Part shown: one piece after another, positions 2,301-24,133 of the stretch
Layout of the letters: every line of letters begins with the position of its first letter
Numbering within the stretch: the stretch's first letter is position 1
Assembly: GCA_023252215.1 (NCBI GenBank)
Contig: JAHEXG010000005.1
Span: 1-48,189, forward strand
Direction: 5' to 3'
DNA from: Candidatus Altarchaeales archaeon
Lineage (GTDB): Archaea; Altiarchaeota; Altiarchaeia; IMC4; QMZM01
Length of the DNA: 48,189 bases
Program-made: the position numbers and the translations under genes
Notes under the pieces: model-generated
What the model was told of the DNA's origin: nothing
The model's database searches: none
What the model saw: the letters and a program-made list of their open reading frames with translations, nothing else

Positions 2301-2302
2301 GC

Positions 2303-2325: not shown

Positions 2326-2356
2326 CTAATCTTGTTTAGCCTTGGCTATTAACAAG

Positions 2357-2366: not shown

Positions 2367-2392
2367 TCCACGCAGAAATAGATAAATATACC

Positions 2393-3715: not shown

Positions 3716-3908
3716 GCTGGCAACGTCTGACTGAATATGGGGGGTGTGCCTTATGCGACGTAGAAAGGGGTCCTGGCGTCCGTCGTTTGCTCTGGGGTGG
3801 TGCGGGACGCCTTCAGGTAATGCGTAGACTGGGTGTGACGGGCCAGGTACGCAACGGTACGTGCAGGACTCATGGAGCATGCGGTTGATTGCTTCGATGG
3901 ATGCGTCT

Positions 3909-6149
3909 TTATTCGGCGTTGTCTTTTCTGTCTTTGGGTTTCAGCAGTTTGACCGGCTTGGGAGATCTTGGGGGAGTTGTCAGGGGCGGGGTCGTATTTA
4001 GTGCGGGGGGTGCGGGTTTTGTTTCTAGTTCCATATCGGGCTGCGTAATGGTCCGCATCATCGGGGGTCTGTAGTGTTCTGGTTCTTGGTCTTTGGCTTT
4101 GCCTCCTTCCTTGGAAGCTTCTTTTCCGCCTTCTTTCTTTTCGCCCGAGGTTTTCTTTTCGCCTGATGCTTTCTTTTTTGCAGGTACTTCTTTTTCTTCC
4201 TCTTCTACTCCGAACATGTTTCTATGTTTGAGTTTTTCTTTTTTCTCTTCTGTCTCTGCCGAATGAGTGAATCCGGTATCTTTTTCCTCGTCTATTCCTT
4301 CTTCCTGGAATATCTTCTCTTTTTCTTCTCCGGTCTTTATTATCATTTCCAGAGTGCTTTTGACTTCCTGTTTCTCGGTCTTGAATATGATCTCTCCTTC
4401 GTAGGTTTTCTTAGGTAAACTTGGGTCTGCTGCTATCTTTATTTTGACTGCTTTTTCTTCTCCGGGCTTTAATGCGAAGGTGCGTGTGCTGTATGTGATG
4501 TCAAAGCCTGAATCTGTCAGGTTTTCGTCGTATATGGTGACGCGGTAGAAAGGAGTCTTTCCGTCGTTTACGATTACTACGTTTAGTATCGTGCTTTCTC
4601 CAGGGGCTATCTCCAGTTCATAGTTGGTTGCGAATTTTGGGCGTAGTTTTATCTCGATAATGTTTTCTTTCTTTTGCGGCTCTTTAAAGGATGCGGGCCT
4701 GGATAACATGCCTACTCCGCGGCTTTCTGCTCCCTGGTTCTGCGCTGTGCCTGAGCCGGATGATCCCTGCGTGGATGCTGTGCCTGCTTCCCGGCCGCTT
4801 TCTGTAGGTTCCTGTGCTTCTCTTCCGGGCACTACTTCGTCTGAGTATCCGTAGGCTGTGTCCTGTTTCTGTTGGTTTGTGTTTTCATAGCCGTAGGAGG
4901 GCAATACCTTGTTTTCTTCGTCGTATCCGTACATTGACGAATACTTGGGTTTTCTGTATTTCAGAGGAGATGTTTCCTGCGTTCCTGCCGCGGCTTCTTC
5001 CTGTGCTGTCCCGGTTGTTTTGTATCCGCCGAAGCCGAGGGTGGATCCTTCGGCTTCTTTCTTTTCCGCGTCCTTTTCTTCGACTGACGCGTAGCCTTTC
5101 ATCCCCACCGCCGATCTGGTGGTCTTGGCTTTTTTCTTGCCTTCCGCGGGCTTCTCTGATGCTGCGGCTGTTTGTGCTTCTGCCGTGATGGGCGCGGTCA
5201 GTTTTATGAATTGGAGCGTGTAGGAAACGAATACCCCTATCCAGTCCATTATGCCGTAGATTATCAGGGGCGATGCGATTAGTATCAGGGTTCCGGTGAG
5301 GTTTATGATGCTGGATAATTCAGGTACTACGCCTGTTAGATTCTGGCTGCTGACGACTATGGTTACCAGCACGAGGGCGTATGCTGCGGGTAGGAATGCC
5401 CAGAATATGAGTTGTCTTAGTAGTGTGTTTCCTACGGTCTTGGTGGGCGGGAAGAATGTTAGGAATATTGCGGTTGGGAAGAATATTATCAGGAAGATCA
5501 GGAAGAAATATCTTGCGGCAAGCATTATGAATATGCCTGCGGTCGCAAGAAATGAGAGCAGGAGGAACGGGATTCCGAGTATTATGTTGGTCCACATGAA
5601 GTCTATTGCTCTGTAGTTTAGGTAGTCGACCGCTTTTCTGTATGTGAATCCCACGTCGAGTGGTCCTTGTCCCAGGATGTTTCTTGTAAGGGTGTTTGAG
5701 GTGTCGAAGAGTAGCTGTATCAGGTAGGTTGATACTGATATGACTACCATGCCCATTATGAGGCTTATGAGTGTTGCTTTGGCTCTCATCCTGCCCTGGG
5801 GCGTTCCGGAGAAGAACAGGAGGTATATTCCTGTTAGCAGGATGGCCATAACGTATAGCGGTTCCAGGATGCTTATGAAGTAGCGGGAGATGCTTGCGAT
5901 CTGCGGGCTTCCCGGGTTCGGGTCGTTTAGGAGAAAGTATGGGAGGTTGTCGTATATTTCGTATTTTATGTTGCTTATCTTGGTCCATAACATCCCCATG
6001 TAGACCAGTCTACCGGAGAGTTCTGATAGGAATTTACCCACTGCGTCGGCTGTGGAGCTGAGGAAGTACTCGTATTTTGTCGGGACCGCGCAGACGGAAG
6101 AGCAGATGAGCATTATTGCCGTCAGCAGAACGATGCTTGTGCGCTTCAT
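3909..6149 (-). CDS. VirB2/VirB6-like polytopic membrane protein with long Ig-like tail
   Basis: A 746-residue protein, last of five tandem paralogs. It has a signal peptide (MKRTSIVLLTAIMLICSS), a paralog-wide lead-in (LNDPNPGS), then YFISILEPLY and a two-helix module with the loop FSGTPQGRMRAKA. This module resembles VirB2/TrbC pilin-type domains. About four more helices follow, including ARYFFLIFLIIFFPTAIFL and the motif TKTVGNTLLRQ, giving a VirB6/TrbL-like shape. Unlike its four paralogs it carries a tail of about 400 residues: low-complexity Gly/Ser/Glu/Lys sequence, a beta-rich Ig-like domain at roughly residues 496-606 (EIAPGESTILNVVIVNDG), then a Lys/Glu-rich and Pro-rich end. Its ATG overlaps the upstream stop by four bases (ATGA), so translation is coupled. 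Channel or scaffold role is inferred. Confidence 0.8.
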   Translation of the reverse strand: MKRTSIVLLTAIMLICSSVCAVPTKYEYFLSSTADAVGKFLSELSGRLVYMGMLWTKISNIKYEIYDNLPYFLLNDPNPGSPQIASISRYFISILEPLYVMAILLTGIYLLFFSGTPQGRMRAKATLISLIMGMVVISVSTYLIQLLFDTSNTLTRNILGQGPLDVGFTYRKAVDYLNYRAIDFMWTNIILGIPFLLLSFLATAGIFIMLAARYFFLIFLIIFFPTAIFLTFFPPTKTVGNTLLRQLIFWAFLPAAYALVLVTIVVSSQNLTGVVPELSSIINLTGTLILIASPLIIYGIMDWIGVFVSYTLQFIKLTAPITAEAQTAAASEKPAEGKKKAKTTRSAVGMKGYASVEEKDAEKKEAEGSTLGFGGYKTTGTAQEEAAAGTQETSPLKYRKPKYSSMYGYDEENKVLPSYGYENTNQQKQDTAYGYSDEVVPGREAQEPTESGREAGTASTQGSSGSGTAQNQGAESRGVGMLSRPASFKEPQKKENIIEIKLRPKFATNYELEIAPGESTILNVVIVNDGKTPFYRVTIYDENLTDSGFDITYSTRTFALKPGEEKAVKIKIAADPSLPKKTYEGEIIFKTEKQEVKSTLEMIIKTGEEKEKIFQEEGIDEEKDTGFTHSAETEEKKEKLKHRNMFGVEEEEKEVPAKKKASGEKKTSGEKKEGGKEASKEGGKAKDQEPEHYRPPMMRTITQPDMELETKPAPPALNTTPPLTTPPRSPKPVKLLKPKDRKDNAE

Positions 6150-7366
6150 TTATACGCCTCCGCGTTGAGGCGCTCGTATTCGGTCTCTTCCATGTCTTCC
6201 TCGCGTATTTCTGTTTTCTCCAGGTATGCTTCGGTCATGGATATGGGCCGTATCAGTACGTAGGACATTAGGCCCAGGGCAGAGATCCAGTTCACTATCC
6301 ATAGGCCTATTAGCGGTGCCGCTATCAGGAGTAGGAATCCTGCGAGGGCGATGAATGTTCTCACGTCGTTCATGGTCTGCGGCAGCACTTCCGGTATGTA
6401 TTGGACGCTGGAATATGCCGTCCAAGTGGCCAGTAGTATCATGCCGTCTATTACCTGGACGTATATCCATAGAAACATCTGTCTCAGCAGGGAGGCGCCT
6501 ATTTTTTTTGTGGCTATGAACGAGTAGAGGAATACCGTGAATGGGAAGAACATGGCAAGCAATAGGACCATGTAGTATCTTACTGCTAAGACCAGTAGGA
6601 CGCCGGCCGGCAATAGTACCATTGCCGCAAGGAATGGGAGCGCCGAGGCGGTGTCGAAGAATGCCATCCGAAGGAAGTATCTGGCGAAGAACTCTTTTAC
6701 TGTCATGAACATGTCGGTGCTTATGGGCGAGGAGATCGCCGGCATGTTTGGGATGGCCATTATAATTGAGGTAAAATAGTGGGATGATTCCAGCAGCAGT
6801 TCGATCAGCGGGAGGGCGAGTGTGATTATCCCCAGGCCTAGTACCATTTTTATGAGGGTTCCTTTGGCTTTGGCTCTTCCTTTTGGCGAGCCTGACAGGA
6901 ACAGGAGGTATACTCCGGTGGTTAGTATGGCGATTGCGTAGAATGGCTGTAGTATGCCTATGAATAGATTGAGCGGGGCGAGTATTTGCGGGGACCGGAT
7001 CAATGGGGGGGTTTTTGTGTGGGAGTTGCCCTGGAAGAGGTCTTTTTGGTACATGAATGGTATGAGGGATTCGCTGAATGTCTTCATGATTGTGTCTACT
7101 TCGTTTGAGGCGTAGAAGTAGAAGTCTATCCTCCTGGATATCTCCATGAATAGTTTTGAGTCGTCTACTGCAACGTCGCCTAATACTTTTTTCAGGTGTG
7201 CGGCGATGTCCGGCTCCAGTGGCTGGGCTGCTATGTATTCTGCTATCCTGTCGTCTTTTGTGGTTTCCTGTCCCGTTACTTTTAGGATCGGGAGCAGGGC
7301 GATTGCTATCAGGATTATTACTGCGGCTTTCTGCCATGCGTTTTTTTTGTTTTTTTCCGGTTTCAT
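6146..7366 (-). CDS. VirB2/VirB6-like polytopic membrane protein (paralog 4)
   Basis: A 406-residue membrane protein. The start at 7366 (MKPEKNKKNAWQKAA) is chosen because a signal-anchor-type hydrophobic stretch follows directly and the preceding gene stops five bases upstream; the longer open frame is a shadow of that gene. After an extracytoplasmic region of about 100 residues comes LFIGILQPFYAIAIL and the signature FLSGSPKGRAKAKG, a two-helix pilin-like module. The second half has VRYYMVLLLAMFFPFTVFLY and TKKIGASLLRQMFLW, conserved in all five paralogs, and ends in a cytosolic-looking acidic tail (EKTEIREEDMEETEYERL). It lies in the operon between paralogs 3 and 5. Role in a membrane channel or pilus platform is inferred from the T4SS-like domain order. 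Confidence 0.8.
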   Translation of the reverse strand: MKPEKNKKNAWQKAAVIILIAIALLPILKVTGQETTKDDRIAEYIAAQPLEPDIAAHLKKVLGDVAVDDSKLFMEISRRIDFYFYASNEVDTIMKTFSESLIPFMYQKDLFQGNSHTKTPPLIRSPQILAPLNLFIGILQPFYAIAILTTGVYLLFLSGSPKGRAKAKGTLIKMVLGLGIITLALPLIELLLESSHYFTSIIMAIPNMPAISSPISTDMFMTVKEFFARYFLRMAFFDTASALPFLAAMVLLPAGVLLVLAVRYYMVLLLAMFFPFTVFLYSFIATKKIGASLLRQMFLWIYVQVIDGMILLATWTAYSSVQYIPEVLPQTMNDVRTFIALAGFLLLIAAPLIGLWIVNWISALGLMSYVLIRPISMTEAYLEKTEIREEDMEETEYERLNAEAYK

Positions 7367-7371
7367 AGTCC

Positions 7372-8328
7372 CTATATGAATCCTCTGAAGGTTTTCACGA
7401 AGAACAGCGGCGTGATTATCAACATGATGAGGCCTGCTATCTCCATTATGAATTTTAGGTATTCTGTTACTGTAAAGCTGGTTATTGAGTCTGTGAGTTG
7501 GACGCCGATAGCTACCGTTATCAGGACTATTGCCATTGCTACCTGGGTGAGGGTCCATAGTATGGTCTGTTCTGTCAGTAGTCTTCCTATGCCTCTTGTG
7601 GGCAGGAAGGCGTAGAGGGTTATGGTGAACGGGAGTATCATTGCAAGCACTGTCACCATGTAGAATCTGAGTTTTAGCAGTATGAGGATTCCTTCGAATA
7701 GGGAGTATGTTGCAAATAGTATGGGGATGCCGCCTGTTTCGTCTCCCATGGAGTAGTCGATTCCTCTGTGGGTCATTATGTATGTTCCTTTTTGCATCAG
7801 GTATTCTGCTGCGTCGGTGAATGGTTTTTCGGTGTCGACGGGTGCCAGCGACAATACCAGGAGCGTGAGAGACTTTGATATGCTGAAGAACAGCATGAGT
7901 ATGTGCGGTGACGCGGTTATCAGGCCTATTGCGAATATGGATAGCACAAGAGAGCTTTTGGCTTTGGCTCTTCCTGAGGGCGAGCCGGAAAAGAACATTA
8001 GATAGATGCCTATGACTAGTATAATAGTTATATATAGCGGCTGTAGCATGGAGATGAAATAGTTTATGATCCTTTCCGCATCCTGCTGGTAAAGCGTCGG
8101 GTTGTCCAGTATGAGCCCGTTTATGTTCTTTATGGAATCTATGGCTTCCGCTACCAGTCGTCCATAGTTCTCGGTCGCTTTCTCCCTGAAGAATGCCTCC
8201 ATGGATTCCTCGTCGAGCGGATGGATGATTGCGGACGCGGTATAAGACAGGACGAATACTGTTATGACCGCCGCCATAGTCAGCGTCTGCATCGTTCTTC
8301 CGGCCGTTTTTGCCCTTTTTCCTTTCAT
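7372..8328 (-). CDS. VirB2/VirB6-like polytopic membrane protein (paralog 3)
   Basis: A 318-residue membrane protein. The start at 8328 (MKGKRAKTAGRTMQTL) overlaps the upstream stop as ATGA and leads straight into a signal peptide (TMAAVITVFVLSYTASA). The pattern is that of its paralogs: LDNPTLYQQ, YFISMLQPLYITIIL, FFSGSPSGRAKAKS, a second helix, then LRFYMVTVLAMILPFTITLY and TRGIGRLLTEQTILW, and a last hydrophobic pair. It ends a few residues after the last helix, without the tails of the next two genes. The domain order of a VirB2-like pilin hairpin followed by a VirB6/TrbL-like bundle is my inference; homology among the five paralogs is directly visible. Confidence 0.8.
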   Translation of the reverse strand: MKGKRAKTAGRTMQTLTMAAVITVFVLSYTASAIIHPLDEESMEAFFREKATENYGRLVAEAIDSIKNINGLILDNPTLYQQDAERIINYFISMLQPLYITIILVIGIYLMFFSGSPSGRAKAKSSLVLSIFAIGLITASPHILMLFFSISKSLTLLVLSLAPVDTEKPFTDAAEYLMQKGTYIMTHRGIDYSMGDETGGIPILFATYSLFEGILILLKLRFYMVTVLAMILPFTITLYAFLPTRGIGRLLTEQTILWTLTQVAMAIVLITVAIGVQLTDSITSFTVTEYLKFIMEIAGLIMLIITPLFFVKTFRGFI

Positions 8329-9251
8329 GGGAGGAACCTTTTTATCATAGTCAATAATATTATAGGCGAAGCTATTGATGCTGTGAATGCCGTTATTCCA
8401 AGGATAGTTTTCAGGTCTCCGGTTATGCCTAACAGGCCTACTCCTATGGTTGTCGTAGCTATTATGAGCGTTATTGCCACCTGCACGAACGTCCACAGCA
8501 CCGTCTGTTCTATCATGACCCTGCCGAGGCTTCTGGTTCCTTTTATGGTGTATAGGAATATGCCTACGGGGAATAGCATGGCAAAGAAGAGCAGGATTAC
8601 GTATCTTAGCGCGAGCATTGTTATCAGGCCAAGGATGAGTGCGAATATGAGGATGAGGAAGATTATTCCTCCGTCGAATGAGGTTATGGTTGCTGCGGAG
8701 AAGAACTTTGCCAGGTCGTTTATGGTTTCTATGAATAATCCGTTCATATTCACGTTTCCGGCGTCTATTATTCCTTTGCATAGTTCGTATGATGCATTGA
8801 ACATGAGCGCGAGTATCTGGTAGGACAGGGATATTGCGACCATGCTTGCTATCAGAGCAGGCAGTAGGTTCTTTGCTCTTATGCGTCCCTGGGGCGAGCC
8901 TGATAAGAATATCAGGTATACGCAGGCGCAGAGGAGGACTGTAACGTAGAGGGGCTCCAGTATTATTATGAAATATCTCATCGTCTGGTATATCATCTTA
9001 TAAGCCAGGGGCGGATTCATCAGTACCAGGCCTTCCAGGTTCTGGTACAGTCCCAGTAGGCCTGAGTCGGTCTTTTTTCCTGTGAAGGTCCCGTAGATCA
9101 GATAGTATATTATCTGTATGAAGGTTCCGCGGAATTCGAGGTTGACTGTCTCCCTCTGGGCGGACGCCTCGCCGAACCATGCGGCGTTCGCTACGACGCC
9201 CGACAGCAGCAATGCCGTAAAGCAAATTACTGCGATGATGTGTTTTTTCAT
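8325..9251 (-). CDS. VirB2/VirB6-like polytopic membrane protein (paralog 2)
   Basis: A 308-residue membrane protein with a signal peptide (MKKHIIAVICFTALLLSG, cleaved near VANA). It contains LMNPPLAYKM, YFIIILEPLYVTVLL, the signature FLSGSPQGRIRAKN, a second helix, then a long hydrophobic pair (IIFLILIFALILGLITML), LRYVILLFFAMLFPVGIFLY and TRSLGRVMIEQTVLWTFVQ. The first gene upstream (paralog 1) stops 27 bases before this start, and its own stop overlaps the next start by ATGA. Five copies with the same motifs but low overall identity suggest an ancient tandem expansion forming a hetero-oligomer (inference). Confidence 0.8.
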   Translation of the reverse strand: MKKHIIAVICFTALLLSGVVANAAWFGEASAQRETVNLEFRGTFIQIIYYLIYGTFTGKKTDSGLLGLYQNLEGLVLMNPPLAYKMIYQTMRYFIIILEPLYVTVLLCACVYLIFLSGSPQGRIRAKNLLPALIASMVAISLSYQILALMFNASYELCKGIIDAGNVNMNGLFIETINDLAKFFSAATITSFDGGIIFLILIFALILGLITMLALRYVILLFFAMLFPVGIFLYTIKGTRSLGRVMIEQTVLWTFVQVAITLIIATTTIGVGLLGITGDLKTILGITAFTASIASPIILLTMIKRFLP

Positions 9252-9278
9252 GCTTTCTGTTTTATTGTTAATTTTATC

Positions 9279-10229
9279 CTAGCCCGGCAAAAAATCCCTG
9301 AAGAACAGCACTGAAGCGACCGGTATCGCTATCAGTGCAAGTATTGCGCCCAGTTCCAGGACTACCAGGACTTCCTGCGCCAGGAAAGGCGAAAATATTA
9401 TGATTATCGTCACCACGGAGATCATCGTTATTGCTTCTATGACTTGTAGGAATATCCATATAAGCGTTTGCTCCATTATTCTTTTCCCGGTTTTTCTGGT
9501 GGGGAGGAAAAAGTAGAGGAACAGCGTCAGAGGGAAGACCATCACGAAAAGAGATATTACCAGGTATCTTGCTATCACAACCATGAGGAGCATCACCAAT
9601 ATGAGAAGAGAGACATAAAGGAAAGGCGCCGAGCCTTCTCCGGAGTACCAGGTGATCTTGTCGAAGTTGGACATGAGGTAGTCTATGGGGTTTATCTCTT
9701 CTTTTGCGGGTAGCAGGACCCCCATCGGATTGACCGGCCCCTGGGATATGACGCCCATGAACAATTGCTCCGAGAGATAGAAGAGGACGTTCAATATATG
9801 CGGCGAAAGCATGACAAGGAACATCGCAGCAATCACTCCCGGGATGATCGCTTTTATCTTGGACCTTATACTGGGGGATCCTGAGAAAAATATCATGTAT
9901 ACTGCGCTGCCTATTATCACCAGGACAAAGATCGGGCCAAGCATTGCTATGAAATATTTTGTTATGCTCATCACTCCCTGGCTCATGGGGTTGGGGTTCA
10001 ATAATAGCAGGTTGACAAAGTGCCTCTGGCATATTCCCATCAGTTCGCGGACGAGTTCCTCTCCTACGTTCTTGAAGCCTTTTTTGAGCAGGAAATCCAT
10101 TAGCTCGTTTACTGCGGCCGATTCGCCTGAAAAAGCGCGGACGCTGCATGCAAGGGCGGTTGCCGCCGCAGCCGTGAGTGCCGCCGCCGGGGCGGCTTTC
10201 CTGTAACCTGTTTTTTGTGTGACAGACAT
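9279..10229 (-). CDS. VirB2/VirB6-like polytopic membrane protein (paralog 1)
   Basis: A 316-residue membrane protein. The start at 10229 (MSVTQKTGYRKAAP) is preferred: a GGAGGT element overlapping the upstream stop and a GGGGA stretch lie in front of it, and the Ala-rich signal sequence follows. An open extension of 17 codons would overlap the preceding gene. Conserved parts are LLNPNPMSQG, YFIAMLGPIFVLVII, the signature FFSGSPSIRSKIKA (the usual Gly before Arg is Ile here), IARYLVISLFVMVFPLTLFLY and TRKTGKRIMEQTLIW. It is the first of the five paralogs and follows the two surface proteins of the same operon. Confidence 0.8.
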   Translation of the reverse strand: MSVTQKTGYRKAAPAAALTAAAATALACSVRAFSGESAAVNELMDFLLKKGFKNVGEELVRELMGICQRHFVNLLLLNPNPMSQGVMSITKYFIAMLGPIFVLVIIGSAVYMIFFSGSPSIRSKIKAIIPGVIAAMFLVMLSPHILNVLFYLSEQLFMGVISQGPVNPMGVLLPAKEEINPIDYLMSNFDKITWYSGEGSAPFLYVSLLILVMLLMVVIARYLVISLFVMVFPLTLFLYFFLPTRKTGKRIMEQTLIWIFLQVIEAITMISVVTIIIIFSPFLAQEVLVVLELGAILALIAIPVASVLFFRDFLPG

Positions 10230-10248: not shown

Positions 10249-11577
10249 TTACCTCCTGCGTATGAAGCGCATGTAGACAAAGAATAATGCCGCGACCAGT
10301 ATCAATAACAGCAAATATTTGCTGTCATCTCCTTTGACGCAGTCCGGGTCTTCTCCGGCGGAGCAGTCCGGGTCGCATCTTCCGTCTTTGACTTTGTCGC
10401 ATACTCCGTCCTGCGATCCTGATGGGCAGTCGCCGGGGCAGTTGTAGTAGTTCTCGATGCCTATATCGCAGAAGCCGTCATGGTTGCATGTGCAGTCCGG
10501 GTCTTCTCCCTGTTTGCAGTCCGGGTCGCATCGTCCGTCTTTGACTTTGTCGCATACTCCGTCCGGGGATCCTGATGGGCAGTCTTCGGGGCAGTTGTAG
10601 TAGTTTTCTCCGGTATAGCATACTTTGTCGTGGTTGCATATTGGTTTTATCGTCAGGGTTATTTTGTCGGATACTACAAAGCCTGCGGCATCCGATACTT
10701 TGAGGGTTATCGTGTTGGAGTCGTTTGCGTCGTTTGACAGGTTGTCGTAGTAGAATTCTTTTTCCCTTCCTATCACGCCGTTTGCGTCGGATTCCCAGCT
10801 ATACGTGTAGGGTTCTTTTCCCCCTTCTGCCAGGGCTGCGAAATTCAGCCTGCTTCCTTCTTTGACTGTCTGTTTGTTTTTGGGGGATTTTATCGATGCC
10901 TGTAACGGGAGTATTTCTATGTCTGCGGGGCTGATTACCCAAAGGGTCTTATCGCTGGTTATGTAGGTGTTTGCCGCGTCTTTTACTTCGAGATGCACTG
11001 TATGTGTTCCTAGCGCAACTTTCATTTCCAGGTATTTAACGCTGCCTATGACTTTGTCGTCCAGGCGCCATGAATACGTATAAGGGGGAACTCCGCCGCT
11101 TACTGACGCGTTGAAGGGTATGTTATCGGTTTCGCTGTAAAATGTTTCCGTCCCCGGCAGGAGTATTCTTGCCTGAAGGGATGCTGGCTTTATGGTTATG
11201 TTCTTATGGGCCGTCATTATTGTGCCCATGCCGTCTGAGAACCTGAACTCTATTATGTGCTGGCCCGCCGACAGATTGTTTCGGGAGATTGAGACCCCGG
11301 TTCCAATTGTTCCGTCCAGGCTGGAAGACCAGGTGTAAGAGCAGGCGGCTCCGCAGGTGTCCTGTCCGGTGTAGATGCCTGCGAAGGTTATGGACTCGCC
11401 CTGGGTAAATTCCGTTTGCCCTGCTCCCGGCATCAGGATCTCTGCACGCGGCGTATGGTCTATTACCACTGGCGTAGTGGTTTTGTTTGTGCATCCCGCG
11501 CATCCTGCGTAGCCTGGGGAGATGACTAAAAGCGCAAATATCAGCATCCCTATAATATCCGCTGTTTTGTTTTTCAT
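10249..11577 (-). CDS. Membrane-anchored Ig-like/Cys-repeat surface protein
   Basis: A 442-residue protein with a signal peptide (MKNKTADIIGMLIFALLV), three PKD/Ig-like repeats (each with a pattern like P-Y-T-Y-S-W and a hydrophobic VSD or VKD strand), then two Cys-rich repeats of about 51 residues. Each repeat reads C-N-H-D..C...E-N-Y-Y-N-C-P-x-D-C-P and then DGVCDKVKDGRCDPDC. It ends in one transmembrane helix (YLLLLILVAALFFVYM) and a short basic tail. It is thus a type I surface protein. The start overlaps the stop of the giant gene upstream by ATGA. The protein at 22422 has the same C-terminal repeat and anchor, so each divergent operon has one such protein. Adhesion or scaffold role is inferred. 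Confidence 0.85.
   Translation of the reverse strand: MKNKTADIIGMLIFALLVISPGYAGCAGCTNKTTTPVVIDHTPRAEILMPGAGQTEFTQGESITFAGIYTGQDTCGAACSYTWSSSLDGTIGTGVSISRNNLSAGQHIIEFRFSDGMGTIMTAHKNITIKPASLQARILLPGTETFYSETDNIPFNASVSGGVPPYTYSWRLDDKVIGSVKYLEMKVALGTHTVHLEVKDAANTYITSDKTLWVISPADIEILPLQASIKSPKNKQTVKEGSRLNFAALAEGGKEPYTYSWESDANGVIGREKEFYYDNLSNDANDSNTITLKVSDAAGFVVSDKITLTIKPICNHDKVCYTGENYYNCPEDCPSGSPDGVCDKVKDGRCDPDCKQGEDPDCTCNHDGFCDIGIENYYNCPGDCPSGSQDGVCDKVKDGRCDPDCSAGEDPDCVKGDDSKYLLLLILVAALFFVYMRFIRRR
10339..10605 (-). repeat. Two direct repeats of about 114 bases inside the Cys-repeat gene
   Basis: Segments 10339-10452 and 10492-10605 are near-identical, 153 bases (51 codons) apart, and encode the two CDKVKDGRCDPDC repeats. 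The high base identity indicates a recent duplication or gene conversion. Confidence 0.75.
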
Positions 11578-14500
11578 TTCTTACCTCTTAATTCATCCCA
11601 CAGGCTGTAGAAGTCAAACCCTCCTCCCCTGAACCATTTGTATGAAAATGCCAGTATCGCCAGCACTATGAAGAGCAGCAGGACCTCCGGCGACAAGAAC
11701 CACCAGATTCTGTCCAGGGAGTATATGTTCATGTATGCTGAGCCGCTGCTTTCAGTGTATTTTCTGCTTCCTGCGTAGGAACAGGTAATCCTTGTGCTCT
11801 CGTCTCCTGCAGTGAATTTGGGAAATGCTGCCTTTCCTGAGCTGTCGGTTCTGATTTCTTTTTTGAGTCCGTAGGCTTCTATCTCTATGGTGATGGGTTC
11901 GTCTGGTATGCCCTGGCCTGTCAGGGGGTCTGTAAGGCTTGCGCTGATGACTGCGTCGTCTCCGGATTTCACGGAATCGTTGACCTTGCAACTTATTGTC
12001 GAGGGCTCTCTTATTGTGACGTTGATGTTCACCATAGCGTAGGGCTTGGTTTCCGTGCGTTTCGGGAAAAGGTTGAATGTCTGGTCTGATTCATTATTTC
12101 TGAAGTGTATGAATAATGTGAGGTTGGCATCGTCTGTCTTGAACCGCGGCTGGGCGCAGCAGCATTTTGTTGCATAGTCTGTGCCAAAGACGTCTCCGCA
12201 GTCGGTCTGGCAGTATTCGTAGCCTGTGCCTGTTTGGTTGGCGTAGATGCAGCCCTTCTGTGCGGGATCCTGCGGGCAGGCGCATACAGCCGCAGAGAAG
12301 AGGCCTTTTTCCCTGCAGTAATCGTTGCAATTCGTATCCGGCGCAAGATCGTTCCATTTCTCGTTCTGGTATTTGAGCAGGGGGTTGGGGTAGTTTAGGG
12401 CTTCGAAGTCTATGGTATAGCCCCCCTTGGATTCTCTGACGTAGCTGTGTGTGAGGTTCTTTCCGTGGCATATCTGCCAGAGATTGTATCCTGCCATGTC
12501 GCTGTATGTGTATGGTCCGTCGCCGGTGGGCGCAAGGCATAGTTTATTCCCCCTAAGGTCGTATTTTATGGCTGTGTTGTCATTTTGGTTTATGGCCCAT
12601 ACGTGGTTATCGAAGTCCATGCCGATTCCGATGGGTCCGCTTCCTGTCGGGTATGTGCCCAGTAGTTCGCAGTTTGTGCCGTCTATTTTATAGATCTCGC
12701 CGGCATCTGAGTCCGCGACCCAGGCATTGTCGTCCCTGTCGATTGCCACTCCCTTGGTCATTGCTCCAACGGTTTTTTTGCATATTATGTTCCCAGTGTC
12801 TCCGTTGATTTTGTATACGTTGCCCGAGCTGCTGCCTCCCAGCCAGATGTCTCCGTTCCGGTCGATGGCTATGCCGTATGTTGCGTTGCCTATTTCGTAT
12901 CGTCCTATTACCGCGGCATCGGATGTTCTTACTTTGTAGAGGACGTTGTTGTGGTTGGTTATCACCCAGATGTTTCCTCTGCAGTCATATACTGCGCCGT
13001 ATGGGTAATCGCTTATATTTATGGGCGCGGATCCCGCTGGGCAGGTTGGGTTCTTTGTCCGGTCTCCTATGAGGCAGTTTCCGGTCTTTCCGTCCAGCTT
13101 CCAGAGGGTGTTGTCGTTTGAGTTGCCTATCCAGATATTGTTTTCGTCGTCTACAGCTATTGCCCTTGGTCCGTCTCCTACTTTGTAGGTGTCTACGACG
13201 TTGCAGGTATTTGATTCCAGCCTTGTTACGTCCCCTGAGTTGTAGTTGCCGACCCAAGCGTTTCCGTCATTGTCTACTGAGGTACTGGAAGGATTGCTTC
13301 CCACCGAGTACTTGCATACCTCCATGCAGTCGTTGGTCCGTATCTTGCTCACAGTGCCTTCGTTGGAATTGGACACGAAGATGTATGACGTCTGCCCAAG
13401 TCTCTTGTTGCCATTATAGGCTACGGTTCCGCGCAGGTTGCCTGTGAACTGGGGATTTGTCCCCGGCTGGCCCGCTATGACGTTTACATCCCCGTTGACC
13501 TCCCGCGTCTCCATTTCCACGAAATCAAAATAATATCCCTCCTCTTCGTGGAAGGTTCGATCAGAGGCGCAGAAAGTCTCGTATGTCTGGCCCTTGGGGG
13601 GCAGGCAGACGCAGTCGTCTCTCTTGTATGTTGTTCCGTTGGCGTCTTCGCATGTCACGTCCGCTATGTCGTAGTCGTTGCAGGTGCAGTCGTCGGGGCA
13701 TATTTTTTGGCATTGCTTTGGGTAGTTATAGTTGCCTGATTCGTATCCGTATGCCTGATCGAAGAAATAGTTTCTCGTCCCTTCTATTGGGTTGTAGAGT
13801 ACCGGGGTGCCTACGGCGTAGGGGCGGCCTGGTTCCCAATATCCGTGAGAGTAGTCTTTGCGCCAAGCCATGTGCTTGACCGGGTACACCATTGAATAAA
13901 AGTCTATGCTGGACTCCGCTGCGTTGAGGCTTAATTCGTTTATGATATCGGGCGTTGCTTCAACGTACAATTGGCCCTTGGACCGGATGCCAGTGGTAAG
14001 GTCGCTGTCCATGTAATTGTCGATATTTCCATTGACCGAAACGTTTACTGCCCCGAACTTGTGGATTATGGGAATACCCTTCCCCGGGCAGTTAAGGTTT
14101 ATCTGGTCTTCCATGCTGCCGGTAGTATCGCTGACCAGGACCACGTTGTTTTCAGTGTCGTAGTTGGCGAGCCTATCATATATGCAGTCCAGCGGGCAGT
14201 CGCACGTCACCCTGTAGTATTTTCCTCCGCCGGCCTGCGCCAGACGCTCCATGAACGCAAAGTCTGCGGTGTTGCCCAATGCTACCGTGTGAACCGTTAT
14301 GCCCTCGCCCTTGGCTGCAGTGGCCTGGGATATTGCATCATTTTTAGCGGCAGTCTGGCTGCAGGGGACCCCGCCCATACAGTATTGCGGCACGCCGTCC
14401 GACATGACTATCAAATACTTTGCACCGCTGGCAGTTCTAATCAGATCCCTCCCCCTCCCTATCCCGCAGGCTATGCATGTTCCGTCCAGCGGCCGGTACT

Positions 14501-17264
14501 GGTCTATCTGGTCGTGAAGCGGCGTTGGGTCCGAGGTCAAAGGATACGAAGAACAGATGCCGCCCGGGCATCTTGGGGGGCTGCTGAACGCAACCAACCC
14601 AACCAGTATGTTCCTGCCAAGTGCCAGGTCCACGAAACTATTAGCCGCAAGCTTTAATGCCTCGATCTTTTTCATGTCAAGGCTGATTTTCGACACATCA
14701 CTATCCTCGACGAATTCCTGGGTTGTTATAGACACGGTTTCGCTCGGACAGCAGCAGCAGTCGGCGCTGGCGCCGCATCCGGGCGGACAAATACATATTC
14801 CAAAGATGTCGCGCAAAGGACACATGCAGCGGCATACGTGGTCTACTAGCGTTGTAGAAAAGCTTTCCTTTATGCCGGTCTGAAAGTCCGAAGCATCTTC
14901 GTTGAGCGTATAGTTGAGGATTATGTCCTGCGCTATCACGAACTGGTCATAATTCGCAGTGTAGGTCATGTGCCCGGAAGACCCGCCGATGGGCGTGTAT
15001 ACCAAGGTGACTGTGTACATGCCTGTGGATTCATCCTTTGAGAAAGCCGCGGACAATTCGAAAGGCATGTTGCCCGTGCTTACTATCTTTATTGCTCCGT
15101 TGTCTGCCGTGGCGACCGTATTGTCGCTGTTGTATGTGATCTCCATTACTCCTTCTGCGACCGTGGTGTCTGGGACTCGTATCTCTATTACGTTGTTCAC
15201 GCTCGGGGGGCTGTATTCGGCCTGCAGGCAGCATATCTGGCTTGCGCATCCGGTTGTGCATGCGCAGTCGCAGTAGGGCGCGCATTTGCGGCAGCATTCC
15301 CACCAGCATGCGGGCTCTCTTCTGAAACCCCCTCCCGCATATAATGCTCCGTTCCCTGTTCTGGTCCAGGTCAGGTTGTTTCTTAGGTCGTTAAGCCTTG
15401 GCGTTACCGTGAATATCTTTGTCCAGATGTTTCTCAGGAGCTTGTTGTCGAATTGGTGGTTGCAGTAGACCTCGGGAACCCAGGTTTTCTTTGCTATGCC
15501 CGTGTCTGCTGGTTTTTCCTGGATTGTGACGTTGGCGTTCCATCTGTGCTGGTCGTTTATGTATTCGTCGGTTATCTTGTCCAGGGACCGGTAGTAGCCA
15601 GTGTCCTTCCGGGTCATGGAGTACCAGGGATAGTTTACTGCTGACGTGGGCTGGTCTGATTTCTGATAGCACCATGCGGTATTCTTCAGGTCATTCACCC
15701 TCCAGCAGAAAAGATAGTCGGCTTCCGGTCGTCCGTACATAGACTCATATTTCTGGTATTGGCATTCCTGGTAGTTTACGAGTTTGTGGCACTGCGGACA
15801 GCATTCACATGGGGCCTTTTCCGGGCAGCCCAGGCAGTTTCCCGAGCCGCACGGCGCATTAGGGTTGCATTCCGGCTCCAGGCAGTCGAACTGGCATTCG
15901 ACTGATTCCAGTTGCTTGTCCATGCATTCGTTCTCAAGAAGAAGGTTCATGGCGTCGGAATACGCAACGTTGTCCACTATCACCGAGACCTTGGTTTCGT
16001 TGTCTTCTTTCTGCAGCTGCTCTGCGAAGAAATATTTATCGACCTCGGCGCCATTGGATAAGGAGGCTCCCAGGAGTTCTGTTGCCGCGGGCAGCTTAGA
16101 ATTATTCGAAGCATTCAGCGCGGGATCTTGCGTAGAATTGGAAAAAGACATGGGCACATTTTTTAGTTCTCCCATCAGCCAGTAAGTCATCAGATTCTCC
16201 TCGAGGTTCTGAGTCTGACCAACTATCTTATAATTATAATTATCCACCACTCCAACGTATGTACGATTGTTCATGACCGTAGTGCACAACACCTGCGGAT
16301 AAATAAAACCCTGCAGGACGTCCTCGATGGACATGTAACTGGGATCCCAGCCCACAACCCGGTATCCGTCGACTGGCAGGCTGCCGCCCACGTTTGCGCA
16401 AGTGCCGGAATCGATCGCCAGATCCTCGCAGAAGCCTTGTTCCTTGCAGCATTGCGCGCTATAACCCAGCAGGCCGTCTTTGTCCAGATACAGTCTCTGG
16501 GAGGTTATTCTCAGAGCCACGGTCTGGTCCGCGTTCCCGTCGTTAAGCGTTATGGGTTCGCAGCTGTATTTTTTAACCACGTTGACCTGGATGCATTTAT
16601 CAACCGACTCCTGGCCTCCATTGTCTACGGCATAAGCGCAGAAAGAGAAAACCCCTTCATCAGGGAAAAACCTTTTATATTCATAGACGCAAGTCTTGAG
16701 ATTCCCGCATTCGTGCTCTTCAATAGTTCCGCCGGCAACGTCTTCTATGTAAATATATGAGACGCCGTTATCGTCCTCTGCGACTATCTCGAACTTGATG
16801 GTGCCACCTACGTGAACCGTGGGAGCGTCTTCTACGCTTTGCTCGGACCGGAAGTATTTTATGATAGGGGGCCTATCCAAAGATACGCCGACTACGTCGC
16901 ATACCAGGCCGGACAACTGGCCGACGGTATCTATCGCCCTCACGCAGAACCTGGCGTTTCCGACAATATTGACCTGGGCAGAGACGCTCTTAGAGCATGT
17001 GAGCGCATCGCTGCAGTTCTGGAACGAAAAGTCCGTAGAATTGGGGTAATAGAAATATATCCCTCTGACCCCCAGGTCATCGCTTGCATTCGCAGTAATC
17101 GAGATGGTATCCCCGGGGGATGCGAACATGGGATTCAGGCTGATCGATACCGCCGGAGGAGAATCGGCAGCACAGGCCGCGGAAGCTGAAAGGATTACGA
17201 ATAGAAAACATGAGAACTTAAACAAAGCATCGTTCTGAGAGACCCGAGTATGTCTTTTTTTCAT
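11574..17264 (-). CDS. Giant surface protein: Ig-like, Cys-rich, permuted VWA, beta-propeller, TM anchor
   Basis: A 1896-residue type I membrane protein, first gene of the operon. After a signal peptide (LFVILSASAACA) come two Ig-like domains (to about residue 230), a long Cys-rich part with CXC clusters (to about 850), and a von Willebrand A-like domain at about 855-1060. Its order is unusual: helix KIEALKLAANSF, strand ILVGLVAFSS, KYLIVMSDGVPQ and FMERLAQAGGGKYYRV come first, and the metal-site strand VVLVSDTTGSM follows. About seven NHL-like repeats (VDNDGNAWVGNYNSGDV type) at roughly 1288-1580 should fold as a beta-propeller. A KCCC module, an Ig-like domain, one transmembrane helix (PEVLLLFIVLAILAF) and a cytosolic tail end the protein. 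VWA and propeller domains usually bind proteins or ligands, so an adhesin is likely. Confidence 0.85.
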   Translation of the reverse strand: MKKRHTRVSQNDALFKFSCFLFVILSASAACAADSPPAVSISLNPMFASPGDTISITANASDDLGVRGIYFYYPNSTDFSFQNCSDALTCSKSVSAQVNIVGNARFCVRAIDTVGQLSGLVCDVVGVSLDRPPIIKYFRSEQSVEDAPTVHVGGTIKFEIVAEDDNGVSYIYIEDVAGGTIEEHECGNLKTCVYEYKRFFPDEGVFSFCAYAVDNGGQESVDKCIQVNVVKKYSCEPITLNDGNADQTVALRITSQRLYLDKDGLLGYSAQCCKEQGFCEDLAIDSGTCANVGGSLPVDGYRVVGWDPSYMSIEDVLQGFIYPQVLCTTVMNNRTYVGVVDNYNYKIVGQTQNLEENLMTYWLMGELKNVPMSFSNSTQDPALNASNNSKLPAATELLGASLSNGAEVDKYFFAEQLQKEDNETKVSVIVDNVAYSDAMNLLLENECMDKQLESVECQFDCLEPECNPNAPCGSGNCLGCPEKAPCECCPQCHKLVNYQECQYQKYESMYGRPEADYLFCWRVNDLKNTAWCYQKSDQPTSAVNYPWYSMTRKDTGYYRSLDKITDEYINDQHRWNANVTIQEKPADTGIAKKTWVPEVYCNHQFDNKLLRNIWTKIFTVTPRLNDLRNNLTWTRTGNGALYAGGGFRREPACWWECCRKCAPYCDCACTTGCASQICCLQAEYSPPSVNNVIEIRVPDTTVAEGVMEITYNSDNTVATADNGAIKIVSTGNMPFELSAAFSKDESTGMYTVTLVYTPIGGSSGHMTYTANYDQFVIAQDIILNYTLNEDASDFQTGIKESFSTTLVDHVCRCMCPLRDIFGICICPPGCGASADCCCCPSETVSITTQEFVEDSDVSKISLDMKKIEALKLAANSFVDLALGRNILVGLVAFSSPPRCPGGICSSYPLTSDPTPLHDQIDQYRPLDGTCIACGIGRGRDLIRTASGAKYLIVMSDGVPQYCMGGVPCSQTAAKNDAISQATAAKGEGITVHTVALGNTADFAFMERLAQAGGGKYYRVTCDCPLDCIYDRLANYDTENNVVLVSDTTGSMEDQINLNCPGKGIPIIHKFGAVNVSVNGNIDNYMDSDLTTGIRSKGQLYVEATPDIINELSLNAAESSIDFYSMVYPVKHMAWRKDYSHGYWEPGRPYAVGTPVLYNPIEGTRNYFFDQAYGYESGNYNYPKQCQKICPDDCTCNDYDIADVTCEDANGTTYKRDDCVCLPPKGQTYETFCASDRTFHEEEGYYFDFVEMETREVNGDVNVIAGQPGTNPQFTGNLRGTVAYNGNKRLGQTSYIFVSNSNEGTVSKIRTNDCMEVCKYSVGSNPSSTSVDNDGNAWVGNYNSGDVTRLESNTCNVVDTYKVGDGPRAIAVDDENNIWIGNSNDNTLWKLDGKTGNCLIGDRTKNPTCPAGSAPINISDYPYGAVYDCRGNIWVITNHNNVLYKVRTSDAAVIGRYEIGNATYGIAIDRNGDIWLGGSSSGNVYKINGDTGNIICKKTVGAMTKGVAIDRDDNAWVADSDAGEIYKIDGTNCELLGTYPTGSGPIGIGMDFDNHVWAINQNDNTAIKYDLRGNKLCLAPTGDGPYTYSDMAGYNLWQICHGKNLTHSYVRESKGGYTIDFEALNYPNPLLKYQNEKWNDLAPDTNCNDYCREKGLFSAAVCACPQDPAQKGCIYANQTGTGYEYCQTDCGDVFGTDYATKCCCAQPRFKTDDANLTLFIHFRNNESDQTFNLFPKRTETKPYAMVNINVTIREPSTISCKVNDSVKSGDDAVISASLTDPLTGQGIPDEPITIEIEAYGLKKEIRTDSSGKAAFPKFTAGDESTRITCSYAGSRKYTESSGSAYMNIYSLDRIWWFLSPEVLLLFIVLAILAFSYKWFRGGGFDFYSLWDELRGKK

Positions 17265-17351: not shown

Positions 17352-19265
17352 ATGGAAAAAACAAACGCAAAATCGCATTGCCTTTTTCTTGCAATCCTGC
17401 TCGTCCTATCCCTGTCCACAATCGTTTTCTCTCAGGACGCGTCCATTAAAAACACCCAGAGCCTGGTCCGCAACCTTATATGCCTTCTACTATGGGTCAT
17501 GCCCTTCATCATACTGCTATTCTTTACCGCCGGAAGCTATCTGATACTCTCCGGAAGCGCAGCCAGCAGAAACACAGGCAAGAAGATGATCAGAAATGCA
17601 TCCGTATCCTTAGTGATAATGGTTAGCCTGATGCTGTTTGTATACCTGGCTCTCCCCGGGGTGGATGTGATGGTATGTTTCGGCGCTCTGCCCGGACTAG
17701 AGAATCAGCCCCCGGTAGCCGAGGCCAGGGTAAGCTATAACCCAAGCCCTTCCGAGAAAAGCGTGGAGATAACAGTAGGCGATACGGCCTATTTCGACGC
17801 CAACCTGTCAAAGGACCCCGACGGGATCGTCGTGGAATACCTATGGGACTACGGCGACGGAAATTACTCAGAAGGCTTCTACACAGACCATGTCTACACT
17901 GCTCCTGGAGAATACTATGTGCAATTGCGGGTAAGAGACGACAGAGGAGTAATAAGCCTTCGTCCAAGCATAGTAAGAGTGATAGTAAATCCTCCTCTCC
18001 GGGTGAGTTCAGAAATACAGAGGCCGGTGTATGAGACAATTGTCACAACGACCCTGGCTCCGTATGTTACAACAACTAATGGCGAGGGAACCACATCGAC
18101 CACCTCGGCAGATTCGAGCACGTCCACCTCCTCAGGAGACACATCTTCCACGCAATCAAGTACTACAACCACTTCAACCACTACTACGACCACAACCACG
18201 ACTACCACGCTACCCGTCAACGTGCTGATAGCTGCCTTAAAGGCCAATATGAAAAAGGTGTACTCAGACGCAGAGATAACAACCCTTGAGGGCAAGATAA
18301 AAGAATACCAGACCTCGCTGAAAAACGACGGCCTGAATTCGCTGTTCCTGTACCTCGACGAGGACGCAACATCCAACATAACCGGGAGCAAAGTCACAAG
18401 TCCGGCAGACTGGAACAACGTCGACGGCATACTGGACCAGGTGACTACGAAGTTACCGATACAATATGTCCTGATAGTGGGAGGCTACGACCGATTCCCG
18501 GCAGGGAAAGTAGGCGCCTACAAGACAGACAACTACTATGCAGATAATAACAAGGATGCAGGGACTCTACCAGACGTGGCCCTTGGAAGACTGCCGGACC
18601 CCAACGGAGGAGACATGTCTCTGCTTATCACGGAATTCGACACCTACACAAAACTGCATAACTCCGGAGGATTAGCTCTGCCGCTACACGTGGGGCGGTC
18701 TCTGGGAACCGGCTATCGCACCATGTGTTTTTGGGATATGATATTCGGAAAAACATGCGCATCGGATGCGAACTGCAAAGAATCAACGACAGATTCTCCA
18801 AGCGCGGTCAGCGGCAAGGACTTCTTCTACCTCGTGCAGCACGGCAGCGCAGGACCCCCGCAGCAGTATGCGAACGCTCTTTTGCCAAGCAACCTGGCCT
18901 CTATGGACGTTTCCAATGCAGTATGGATGATGGTTCCCTGCTACGGCGGCGTGATAGACTATGCGTCGACAGCCAGCAGCATAGTTCTGAGCTACCTGAA
19001 AAAAGGAGGCGCAGTCCACATGTCAAGCACCGAGCAAAACTGCTGCTCCACGACCGGCGGCACCTGCACCAATAACATAGATAGCGGAGTAGGACTACTC
19101 TACTATAAAATAGCAAAAAAATACTCTGTTGGAACAAGGATAGGGGACGCATACAAACAAGGAAAAACCGAATTCAAAAACGAATTAGGTAACGGACCGG
19201 CCCAGGAATACTACATAAACTGCCTATACGGGGACCCGACCTTGAAGATAACTACAATGTGGTGA
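17352..19265 (+). CDS. Pilin-like module fused to PKD domain and C25 gingipain-like peptidase
   Basis: A 637-residue protein. Signal peptide (LAILLVLSLSTIVFS), then two helices flanking the loop ILSGSAASRNTGKKM at about residues 40-100, which resembles the VirB2-type hairpin of other proteins in the cluster. A PKD domain follows (ANLSKDPDGIVVEYLWDYGDG), then a long Thr/Ser linker. The C-terminal half matches the C25 caspase-like family: VLIVGGYDRFP, DVALGRLP, VQHGSAGPP with probable catalytic His497, VPCYGGVID with probable catalytic Cys530, and the family-typical end LYGDPTLKI. Both dyad residues are in place, so it is probably an active cysteine endopeptidase held outside the membrane. It is the first gene of the plus-strand operon; substrate unknown. 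Confidence 0.85.
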   Translation: MEKTNAKSHCLFLAILLVLSLSTIVFSQDASIKNTQSLVRNLICLLLWVMPFIILLFFTAGSYLILSGSAASRNTGKKMIRNASVSLVIMVSLMLFVYLALPGVDVMVCFGALPGLENQPPVAEARVSYNPSPSEKSVEITVGDTAYFDANLSKDPDGIVVEYLWDYGDGNYSEGFYTDHVYTAPGEYYVQLRVRDDRGVISLRPSIVRVIVNPPLRVSSEIQRPVYETIVTTTLAPYVTTTNGEGTTSTTSADSSTSTSSGDTSSTQSSTTTTSTTTTTTTTTTTLPVNVLIAALKANMKKVYSDAEITTLEGKIKEYQTSLKNDGLNSLFLYLDEDATSNITGSKVTSPADWNNVDGILDQVTTKLPIQYVLIVGGYDRFPAGKVGAYKTDNYYADNNKDAGTLPDVALGRLPDPNGGDMSLLITEFDTYTKLHNSGGLALPLHVGRSLGTGYRTMCFWDMIFGKTCASDANCKESTTDSPSAVSGKDFFYLVQHGSAGPPQQYANALLPSNLASMDVSNAVWMMVPCYGGVIDYASTASSIVLSYLKKGGAVHMSSTEQNCCSTTGGTCTNNIDSGVGLLYYKIAKKYSVGTRIGDAYKQGKTEFKNELGNGPAQEYYINCLYGDPTLKITTMW

Positions 19266-22421: not shown

Positions 22422-23339
22422 ATGAAAAAGAAAATCTGGTCCATCACATTGATCCTATGCCTTGCGGCGGCAGCCTACGCGGCAAACAACACCTGCCCCG
22501 CATGCGGCGGAAATACGATAACAAATCCGGCAGGCACAATAACAGCGGAAAAAACAGCGCCGGAAAAGATAACAAAAGGAGAGACTCTGCGAGTTGTCAT
22601 AACGATAACCAACACATATCCTGTAAGTATGTCCGTCAGCCTGAAAGAATATTTCGGAGGCGCAAACGAAATAAACATGTCAGGCTTCAAGAGAAGCTCC
22701 CCGCCCGGCTCATCAGTGCCTCCATACTACAGAAAAACCGTAGACCTGCCGAAAAACTCCCAGACAATCGTATCCTACGAGATAGAACCGCTATACTACG
22801 GCCCATTCATGATACCTGAAACCAAGTTGTCAACCTCTAATGAAACGTTTTCATCCAACCCCCTGACAGTGTCTGTTGAATGCAACCAAAACAAGATATG
22901 CGAACCAAGCCTGGACGAAAACGCATTCACCTGCCCCCAGGACTGCCCGCCCGACAAACCGGACAGCCTATGCAACCCGATAAGAGACAAAATATGCGAC
23001 CCCGACTGCCCGCCTGGCGCAGACCCGGACTGCGTTACAACTACGACCACCACCCAAACCAGAGCGACCTCCACCACCCTCAAATACTACTGCGGCGACA
23101 ACCTCTGCCACTATCCGGAAGAGAATTACGGAAACTGCCCATCCGACTGCCCATCAGGATCGTCTGACGGCTACTGCGACAAAGTCAAAGACCGACGATG
23201 CGACCCCGACTGCACCGCGAAAGAAGACCCGGACTGTGCAGGCCCGGACAACACCGGCCTGATCATAGTCTTTTTATTCGTATTGGCTTTGGCGCTCATA
23301 ATCGCTTACAAAAAACGATGGCTGAAAAAAGGAGAATGA
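22422..23339 (+). CDS. Membrane-anchored Ig-like/Cys-repeat surface protein
   Basis: A 305-residue protein starting four bases after the upstream stop. Signal peptide (WSITLILCLAAAAYA), a CARDB-like beta domain (GETLRVVITITNTYPVSMSV), then two Cys repeats separated by a Thr linker; the second reads CPSGSSDGYCDKVKDRRC and is nearly that of the protein at 10249. A single helix (LIIVFLFVLALALIIAY) and a basic tail anchor it. An upstream open extension overlaps the preceding gene and is rejected. The matching protein in the divergent operon suggests the two operons each supply one copy of this anchor (inference). Confidence 0.8.
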   Translation: MKKKIWSITLILCLAAAAYAANNTCPACGGNTITNPAGTITAEKTAPEKITKGETLRVVITITNTYPVSMSVSLKEYFGGANEINMSGFKRSSPPGSSVPPYYRKTVDLPKNSQTIVSYEIEPLYYGPFMIPETKLSTSNETFSSNPLTVSVECNQNKICEPSLDENAFTCPQDCPPDKPDSLCNPIRDKICDPDCPPGADPDCVTTTTTTQTRATSTTLKYYCGDNLCHYPEENYGNCPSDCPSGSSDGYCDKVKDRRCDPDCTAKEDPDCAGPDNTGLIIVFLFVLALALIIAYKKRWLKKGE

Positions 23340-24133
23340 GGCTTATCGCAGGCGCTCTATTCCTGGTCTGCATGATATGTCTCTCCTACGGGGACGACTG
23401 CAAGGACGAATGTACTGCGCCATGCGACGCCCTGAAATGCAACATGCTGTCCTCAACTCTTGGAGGCTGCTGGTTTGACGGCGCAAGCTGCTGGAGCTGC
23501 ACCGGAAGCAACAAAGTGACAACCTGCGAACAGTACGGTAAAGGCTCATGCGAGGCGAACACCTGCGGCCTCCCCGGCAGATGCAAGTGGACCATGTCCG
23601 CCTGCATAAGCACAGCCGTCCAGTCAAACTGCAAGACAAGCGGATGCTCCATCTCATACAAGTGCATGGCCGACGGGGAATGCGCGCACTATTCGATCTC
23701 CACGCAGGACTACTGCCGGAACGTCTACACGGAACACGGTTTCGCATACGACATCGCAGATGCGGCGTCCTGCGACAAGATAGGCGAGATATGCAAGAAA
23801 ACGGACGAAAAATGCCAGGAACTATCAAACGACGCATCAACGAGCCTACAGAGACAGAGCGAATGCACGCTCCTCAAACAGATGTGCCTCCAGTGCCAGG
23901 GAGACTGCGAACTACGCAGGAGCGCAAACAGCATAGAGAACATAATATACGGCACCGCAGCAGGCCTGGCAGTCCTGCTGCTGGTAATAAACGCGATCCA
24001 GATGATGACCGCAGAGGACGCACTGGCAAGGAGCAACGCCAAAAAGGGAATGGCCTACGTAGTTCTATCCCTTCTGATAATATTAATAGCGATAAAATTC
24101 ATAGAATACGTGTGGATATCCTTCAGCACATAA
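23336..24133 (+). CDS. Stand-alone VirB2/TrbC-type pilin-like Cys-rich protein
   Basis: A 265-residue protein. The start at 23336 makes the ATGA overlap seen elsewhere in the cluster; an in-frame ATG at 23318 is possible. After a signal peptide (LIAGALFLVCMICLS) comes a Cys-rich ectodomain of about 160 residues with some 26 Cys. The last 75 residues form a two-helix hairpin: IIYGTAAGLAVLLLVINAIQ, loop MTAEDALARSNAKKG, and AYVVLSLLIILIAIKFIEYV. This matches the pattern of T4SS pilin families of Gram-positive and archaeal systems (hydrophobic helix, [MY]-x-[TS]-x-x-[ED]...A-K-K-G, hydrophobic helix). It may polymerise or be the membrane base of a pilus; this is inferred. Confidence 0.75.
   Translation: MRLIAGALFLVCMICLSYGDDCKDECTAPCDALKCNMLSSTLGGCWFDGASCWSCTGSNKVTTCEQYGKGSCEANTCGLPGRCKWTMSACISTAVQSNCKTSGCSISYKCMADGECAHYSISTQDYCRNVYTEHGFAYDIADAASCDKIGEICKKTDEKCQELSNDASTSLQRQSECTLLKQMCLQCQGDCELRRSANSIENIIYGTAAGLAVLLLVINAIQMMTAEDALARSNAKKGMAYVVLSLLIILIAIKFIEYVWISFST

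Follow-up and report, generated by a model that had tools for sequence, protein, structure and literature searches.

The VirB6-like gene array

The window analysed here is the whole of a 48,189 nt stretch (contig JAHEXG010000005.1, assembly GCA_023252215.1) of Candidatus Altarchaeales archaeon, the genome of which comprises 1.55 Mb in 90 contigs and is placed in what is termed here the Altiarchaeales-type order. It contains five tandem genes, the products of which are, on homology and fold, core membrane subunits of VirB6/PrgH type from a minimal type IV secretion system (T4SS) resembling MPF_FATA. What is new is the conserved number of VirB6 copies; VirB6 multiplicity and the pilin-like N-terminus are already known. 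The genes and their hairpins are:

9279..10229, minus strand: VirB6-like paralog 1, 316 aa (position-1 clade support 100/99)
9783..9968, minus strand: alpha1-loop-alpha2 pilin-like hairpin of paralog 1, FFSGSPSIRSKIK (PF18895 22.4 bits, genome search)
8325..9251, minus strand: VirB6-like paralog 2, 308 aa (AlphaFold predicted local distance difference test (pLDDT) 84.6, top PDB match R388 VirB6; position-2 clade 100/100)
8829..8999, minus strand: hairpin of paralog 2, FLSGSPQGRIRAK (AlphaFold helices 85-115 and 120-141)
7372..8328, minus strand: VirB6-like paralog 3, 318 aa (start overlaps paralog 2 stop by 4 nt; position-3 clade 100/100)
7897..8067, minus strand: hairpin of paralog 3, FFSGSPSGRAKAK (PF18895 above cut-off)
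6146..7366, minus strand: VirB6-like paralog 4, 406 aa (position-4 clade 100/99)
6803..6970, minus strand: hairpin of paralog 4, FLSGSPKGRAKAK (PF18895 match)
3909..6149, minus strand: VirB6-like paralog 5, 746 aa, with a C-terminal extension (start overlaps paralog 4 stop by 4 nt; position-5 clade 100/99)
5712..5885, minus strand: hairpin of paralog 5, FFSGTPQGRMRAK (PF18895 match)

The initial annotation described five tandem paralogs between 3909 and 10229, and this description is borne out in position and paralogy. An end-to-end alignment of the five over their N-terminal ~310 residues has 24 invariant columns, and pairwise identities are 27-34%. Profiles built from any four recover the fifth at E values of 3e-48 to 2e-61. 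Among 1,005 decoys, shuffled or reversed, none scores better than 0.17, and the paralogy is far above chance. Genes within the run are separated by gaps of at most 27 nt or overlap by 4 nt, spacing that fits co-expression, and all five proteins start with a hydrophobic stretch resembling a Sec signal peptide.

A shared FSG[ST]P-x-G-R-x-[RK]-A-K signature had also been proposed. The FSG[ST]P…R…K motif occurs five times in the six frames of the window, once per paralog. The hairpin is thus present in all five, but the full G-R-x-[RK]-A-K is found in only four, the hairpin of paralog 1 reading SIRSKIK at this point. Each hairpin consists of two hydrophobic stretches joined by a loop of charge +3/+4. 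Its likeness to T4SS pilins is upheld by the T4SS_pilin profile PF18895, which matches it in four of the five paralogs (one above the curated cut-off, 27.0 against 26.6 bits, and three below) and in 45 of 100 family members at E <= 0.01. When these 100 members were compared with 24,736 Pfam families, only T4SS_pilin (45) and TrbL/VirB6 (7) recurred; the motif was not found in an unrelated, named transporter family. The paralogs are not small two-helix pilins of the PF18895 kind, being 308-746 aa long with several further hydrophobic helices.

The initial annotation took the hairpin for that of a pilin, newly fused to a channel protein. The scores with the T4SS pilin family favour such a reading. 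In profile-profile alignment, however, the hairpin falls on residues 20-82 of R388 TrwI, which form the alpha1-alpha2 membrane hairpin of VirB6, and homology of the CedA N-terminus to the CedA1 pilin has been reported, as has, at lower significance, that between VirB6 and VirB2 (Beltran 2023, PMC9905601). On these grounds the hairpin is an intrinsic VirB6 element, native to the protein, and a fusion is very improbable. The alpha1 helix of R388 VirB6 is the proposed site of VirB2 recruitment (PMC9259494).

Relationship to VirB6 and PrgH

That the remainder of these proteins is VirB6-like, as first suggested, is confirmed by structure and profile comparisons. The four best PDB matches of the paralog 2 model in Foldseek are all R388 VirB6 (TrwI), with probability 1.00 and E values from 2.4e-3. 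For the paralog 5 model the best R388 VirB6 match has an E value of 5.3e-4 and a template modelling (TM) score by target of up to 0.52, the remaining matches falling on its immunoglobulin (Ig)-like tail. Both models match the VirB6 chains of entries 7o3v/8rt9/8rtd at probability 1.00, over 264-289 columns, and TM scores by target are 0.38-0.52 where the chains are long.

The family profile aligns with PrgH (E 5.6e-5, probability 66) and with VirB6 (E 8.3e-5, probability 61) in hhalign, the R388 reference sequence being NC_028464. Reversed profiles and seven unrelated decoys, mostly membrane proteins, remain below 1% probability. PrgH and VirB6 compared directly reach 20%, which is below the score of the family with either. 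The segment FP..PTR.iG..Q aligns to GPIFI..PTHRF of TrwI and to APLFV..ELRSIA..KQ of PrgH. The conserved, essential Trp of VirB6 is unmatched, since the invariant Trp of the family lies seven columns from that of TrwI; PrgH also lacks a Trp there. PF04610 (TrbL/VirB6) was matched at E <= 0.01 by seven of the 100 members (one score seen was 22.1 bits, cut-off 25.9) and by none of the five window proteins. Sequence searches of the family against PDB chains found no matches, and PADLOC gave no result for two paralogs and two pilin fusions.

The nearest viral structure to the VirB6-like model is Gp153 of Bacillus phage G (BFVD model G3MBL9; E 1.1e-6, TM 0.60). Through this likeness, at the level of models, a jumbo phage would have a fold of the VirB6 kind. 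There is no support for a plasmid or virus origin of the family: a scan of viral contigs found no relative, and paralog 2 had only chance-level tblastn matches among plasmids.

T4SS partner genes

VirB4 is present in 20 of the 23 genomes searched, usually as a single copy. PrgI adjoins it at every locus covering it, with the exception of a more diverged second VirB4 in G018, and at most loci a pilin is close to the VirB4-PrgI pair. In G002, five VirB6 genes, a pilin, PrgI and VirB4 follow one another on one strand, and family f5 has one cluster of pilins, VirB4, PrgI and VirB6. Contig C84 of the window's own genome groups VirB4, a PrgI-VirB4N protein and a pilin. This VirB4 is nearest to the CD1110/PrgJ family; against the VirB4 model of the CD1110 family it scores 306.9 bits, where the cut-off is 325. 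At locus L031, VirB4 is split, its N-terminal part being fused behind PrgI (3615-4490) and its ATPase part forming a gene of its own (1183-3606). Besides its multi-VirB6 system, G016 has on contig C94 (L091:3017-8872) a second, plain T4SS of pilin, VirB6, PrgI and VirB4, with a single VirB6.

Relaxases of the MOB_P family (PF03432) were not found in 12 genomes, other relaxase families not having been searched. The VirD4 profile PF02534 gave partial matches only, covering ~40-75 positions. VirB5, VirB8, VirB9 and VirB10 were not seen among the genes examined, in which they were not systematically searched for.

Pilin-profile matches number 29 in the window's own genome, including the VirB6 hairpins; several are marginal. 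Contig C76 of this genome (L021:1047-3233) encodes single-chain 'polypilins' with VirB2-type hairpins in tandem, and relatives are present in G001, G005, G006 and G012. There are five hairpins in the own genome and G001, and about four to ten elsewhere; a fixed five in these concatemers was therefore rejected.

Conservation of five VirB6 genes

Of 24 genomes of the order, 23 have the VirB6 family, and five genomes from other families of the class all lack it. An array was counted as complete if its contig included both flanks (n=13), and 11 of these arrays contain exactly five full-length genes (the window, G001C297, G002, G004, G005, G006, G007C3, G007C9, G009, G012 and G015b). The array G015a has four genes. 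Its missing position-1 ortholog, G015c, lies elsewhere on that single contig, at a distance of ~530 kb, and pairs with position 1 of G015b (support 100/100). The genes of family f5 are dispersed, yet in G018 they total five, one from each of five groups. Genome G016 has five VirB6 genes and the one of its second system, if two contig-edge fragments are counted as one gene. The five-fold expansion, which the initial annotation counted as part of a possible new arrangement, is real, with its number and gene order kept across the order, and has a precedent in Rickettsia (PMC2653234). Contig C16 of the window's own genome (L024:2-1909) has the start of a second VirB6 array, of type B, cut by the contig edge.

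There are three full sets, or 15 VirB6 genes, in G007 and ten VirB6 genes in the single-contig genome G015, with one VirB4 in each. One VirB4 serves one to three VirB6 sets. VirB6 of R388 is a pentamer (PMC9259494), as is DotA of the Dot/Icm system (PMC12857230). Because the part is pentameric in these systems, and because its five paralogs here are obligate, are closely co-expressed and share one motor, a hetero-pentameric VirB6 ring containing one copy of each paralog is the best-supported mechanism, and is probably, though by no means certainly, correct.

Five separate homopentamers could instead act as alternative channels for different substrates or partners while sharing one VirB4 motor. 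The paralogs are only about 30% identical, several sets are served by one VirB4, and a similar proposal of diverse uptake channels has been made for RvhB6a-e of Rickettsia (PMC2653234), all of which would suit such channels. They would leave unexplained the recurrence of five, the kept order, the retention of the displaced member G015c and the dispersed set that is also of five. Separate homopentamers are therefore considered unlikely.

History of the sets

Within one array type, array position corresponds to ortholog group (support of 99-100 in type A). Between types, approximately unbiased (AU) tests reject positional orthology of D with A/B (p 0.003, 1e-4 and 3e-67), and the D-type set forms a separate clade (support 100/98). 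Among A/B/C, for which the tests cover positions 1-3, positional orthology is rejected at positions 2 (p 0.02) and 3 (p 0.008). Within D, G004 and G009 have their own separate position-1/2 pairs (AU p 0.005 and 0.001). Deep splits, such as {1,2,3} versus {4,5}, are partly common to the array types. The trees and AU tests indicate that five was reached more than once, unless fixed sets were homogenised by gene conversion.

The number could also be an inherited accident, in which one ancestral array was passed on by descent with gene conversion and five has no stoichiometric meaning. The partly common deep splits and the A/B/C orthology at position 1, which is not rejected (p 0.08), are in keeping with this. 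The single duplications in G004 and G009, by which five is rebuilt separately, and the clade formed by the D-type set are not. An accident of inheritance is judged to be improbable, slightly more so than the separate homopentamers.

Several observations weigh against a conserved hetero-pentamer that arose repeatedly. The complete array of G010 holds four genes only, and its genus-mate G003 looks alike, with four, in an array that reaches the contig edge. Gene conversion could account for the apparent repeated rise to five, and the position-1 result among A/B/C counts on the same side. The pentameric state is taken from R388 VirB6 and DotA, not from archaeal VirB6/CedA. The two archaeal conjugative pili with solved structures are one-start helices and lack C5 symmetry (PMC9905601). 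The VirB4-PrgI-pilin locus of the window's own genome is on another contig, C84, away from the array. For a helical protein of this length, the Foldseek E values are modest.

Neighbouring genes and extensions

The further features of the window are:

4335..4661, minus strand: Ig-like beta-sandwich, residues 497-605, in the paralog 5 extension (AlphaFold pLDDT ~95; Ig/PapD-like domain matches)
10249..11577, minus strand: Cys-rich, membrane-anchored surface protein, lying 19 nt upstream of paralog 1 within its operon (a counterpart holds this position in the two related loci L065 and L066)
11574..17264, minus strand: von Willebrand factor A (vWA)/beta-propeller surface protein, 1,896 aa, membrane-anchored, first gene of the operon (Pfam VWA and propeller; 4-nt overlap with the following gene; homologs at the corresponding position of loci L065 and L066)
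17352..19265, plus strand: surface protein with a PKD domain and, at residues 33-98, a VirB2-pilin-like hairpin (a pilin-PKD relative is near the array in L066)
23222..24133, plus strand: Cys-rich protein with a C-terminal VirB2-pilin hairpin (PF18895 28.9 bits, above cut-off)
24149..25729, plus strand: fusion of a papain-family protease (PF00112 119 bits) with a VirB2-pilin-like hairpin (PF18895 17.8 bits, under the cut-off)

The fusions of hairpins to PKD, Cys-rich and papain-protease domains suggest decorated pili, or a hairpin used as an anchor or export signal. The giant vWA/beta-propeller protein, being in the operon of the VirB6 set, is a candidate contact adhesin. A VirB11-like ATPase of the window (46087-47598) was set aside as a T4SS part, since the archaellum ATPase model scores best and it is taken to be a pilus/archaellum ATPase.

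Proposed assembly and comparison with known systems

In the proposed mechanism, one copy of each paralog would assemble into the hetero-pentameric ring, which would be the platform that recruits VirB2-like pilins at the alpha1-alpha2 hairpin, and the VirB4-PrgI motor would push these pilins into a surface fibre. The five ring positions would be made functionally distinct by the unlike extensions of the paralogs, of which the Ig-like tail of paralog 5 is one. Separate tasks for each position are a prediction of the hetero-pentamer, and the differing extensions fit it. The co-transcribed giant surface proteins may make contact with partner cells. More broadly, an obligate hetero-pentameric ring of fixed order may be the conserved T4SS core of the whole order, its set completed independently more than once, with an asymmetric ring that could seed one-start archaeal pili and with Rickettsia as a parallel. 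This fuller proposal is tentative, and on balance somewhat doubtful. That an asymmetric base would suit one-start pili is speculation.

The VirB6-PrgI-VirB4 core is shared with the MPF_FATA PrgH-PrgI-PrgJ core of plasmid pCF10, and the second system of G016 has the plain order. The pCF10 system has one VirB6, however, where there are five here, and here no MOB_P relaxase or clear VirD4 was found. With the VirB6 (TrwI) stalk pentamer of R388 the family has in common the fold, the alpha1-alpha2 hairpin and the P..PT[RH] segment, but in R388 a single gene product forms a homopentamer, whereas five different genes are present here. The Ced/Ted DNA import systems of Crenarchaeota (CedA/TedA, CedA1/TedC, CedB/TedB) are likewise an archaeal VirB2-VirB4-VirB6 set, likened on the basis of their published description (PMC9905601); each has a single CedA or TedA, while PrgI and a PrgJ-type VirB4 are found here. 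Patescibacteria have tandemly amplified PF18895 pilins, in clusters that mostly lack a relaxase; there it is the pilins that are amplified, to a variable number (2-11), and here it is VirB6, to a fixed one (PMC12102498).

A parallel in number is known from the Rickettsiales. Rickettsia has five VirB6 copies, RvhB6a-e (Gillespie 2009, PMC2653234), and Anaplasma has four paralogs (PMC7648143). In Rickettsia, as in Anaplasma/Ehrlichia, four or five VirB6 paralogs, greatly diverged and in some cases with long extensions, lie in a virB3-virB4 operon (PMC2653234, PMC7648143). These are of an unrelated lineage, and their number is four to five. In the literature searched, neither a proposal of a VirB6 heteropentamer nor a report of a T4SS in Altiarchaea was found.

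These genes extend the range of the PrgJ/PrgI-type T4SS to an archaeal order. Exactly five diverged VirB6 copies amount to a sequence-level, directly testable prediction of a hetero-pentamer, in contrast to the VirB6/DotA homopentamers of the T4SS stalks described. The hetero-pentamer also offers an answer to why the Rickettsiales have four or five VirB6 paralogs and, if it is true, Rickettsia would be a parallel case.

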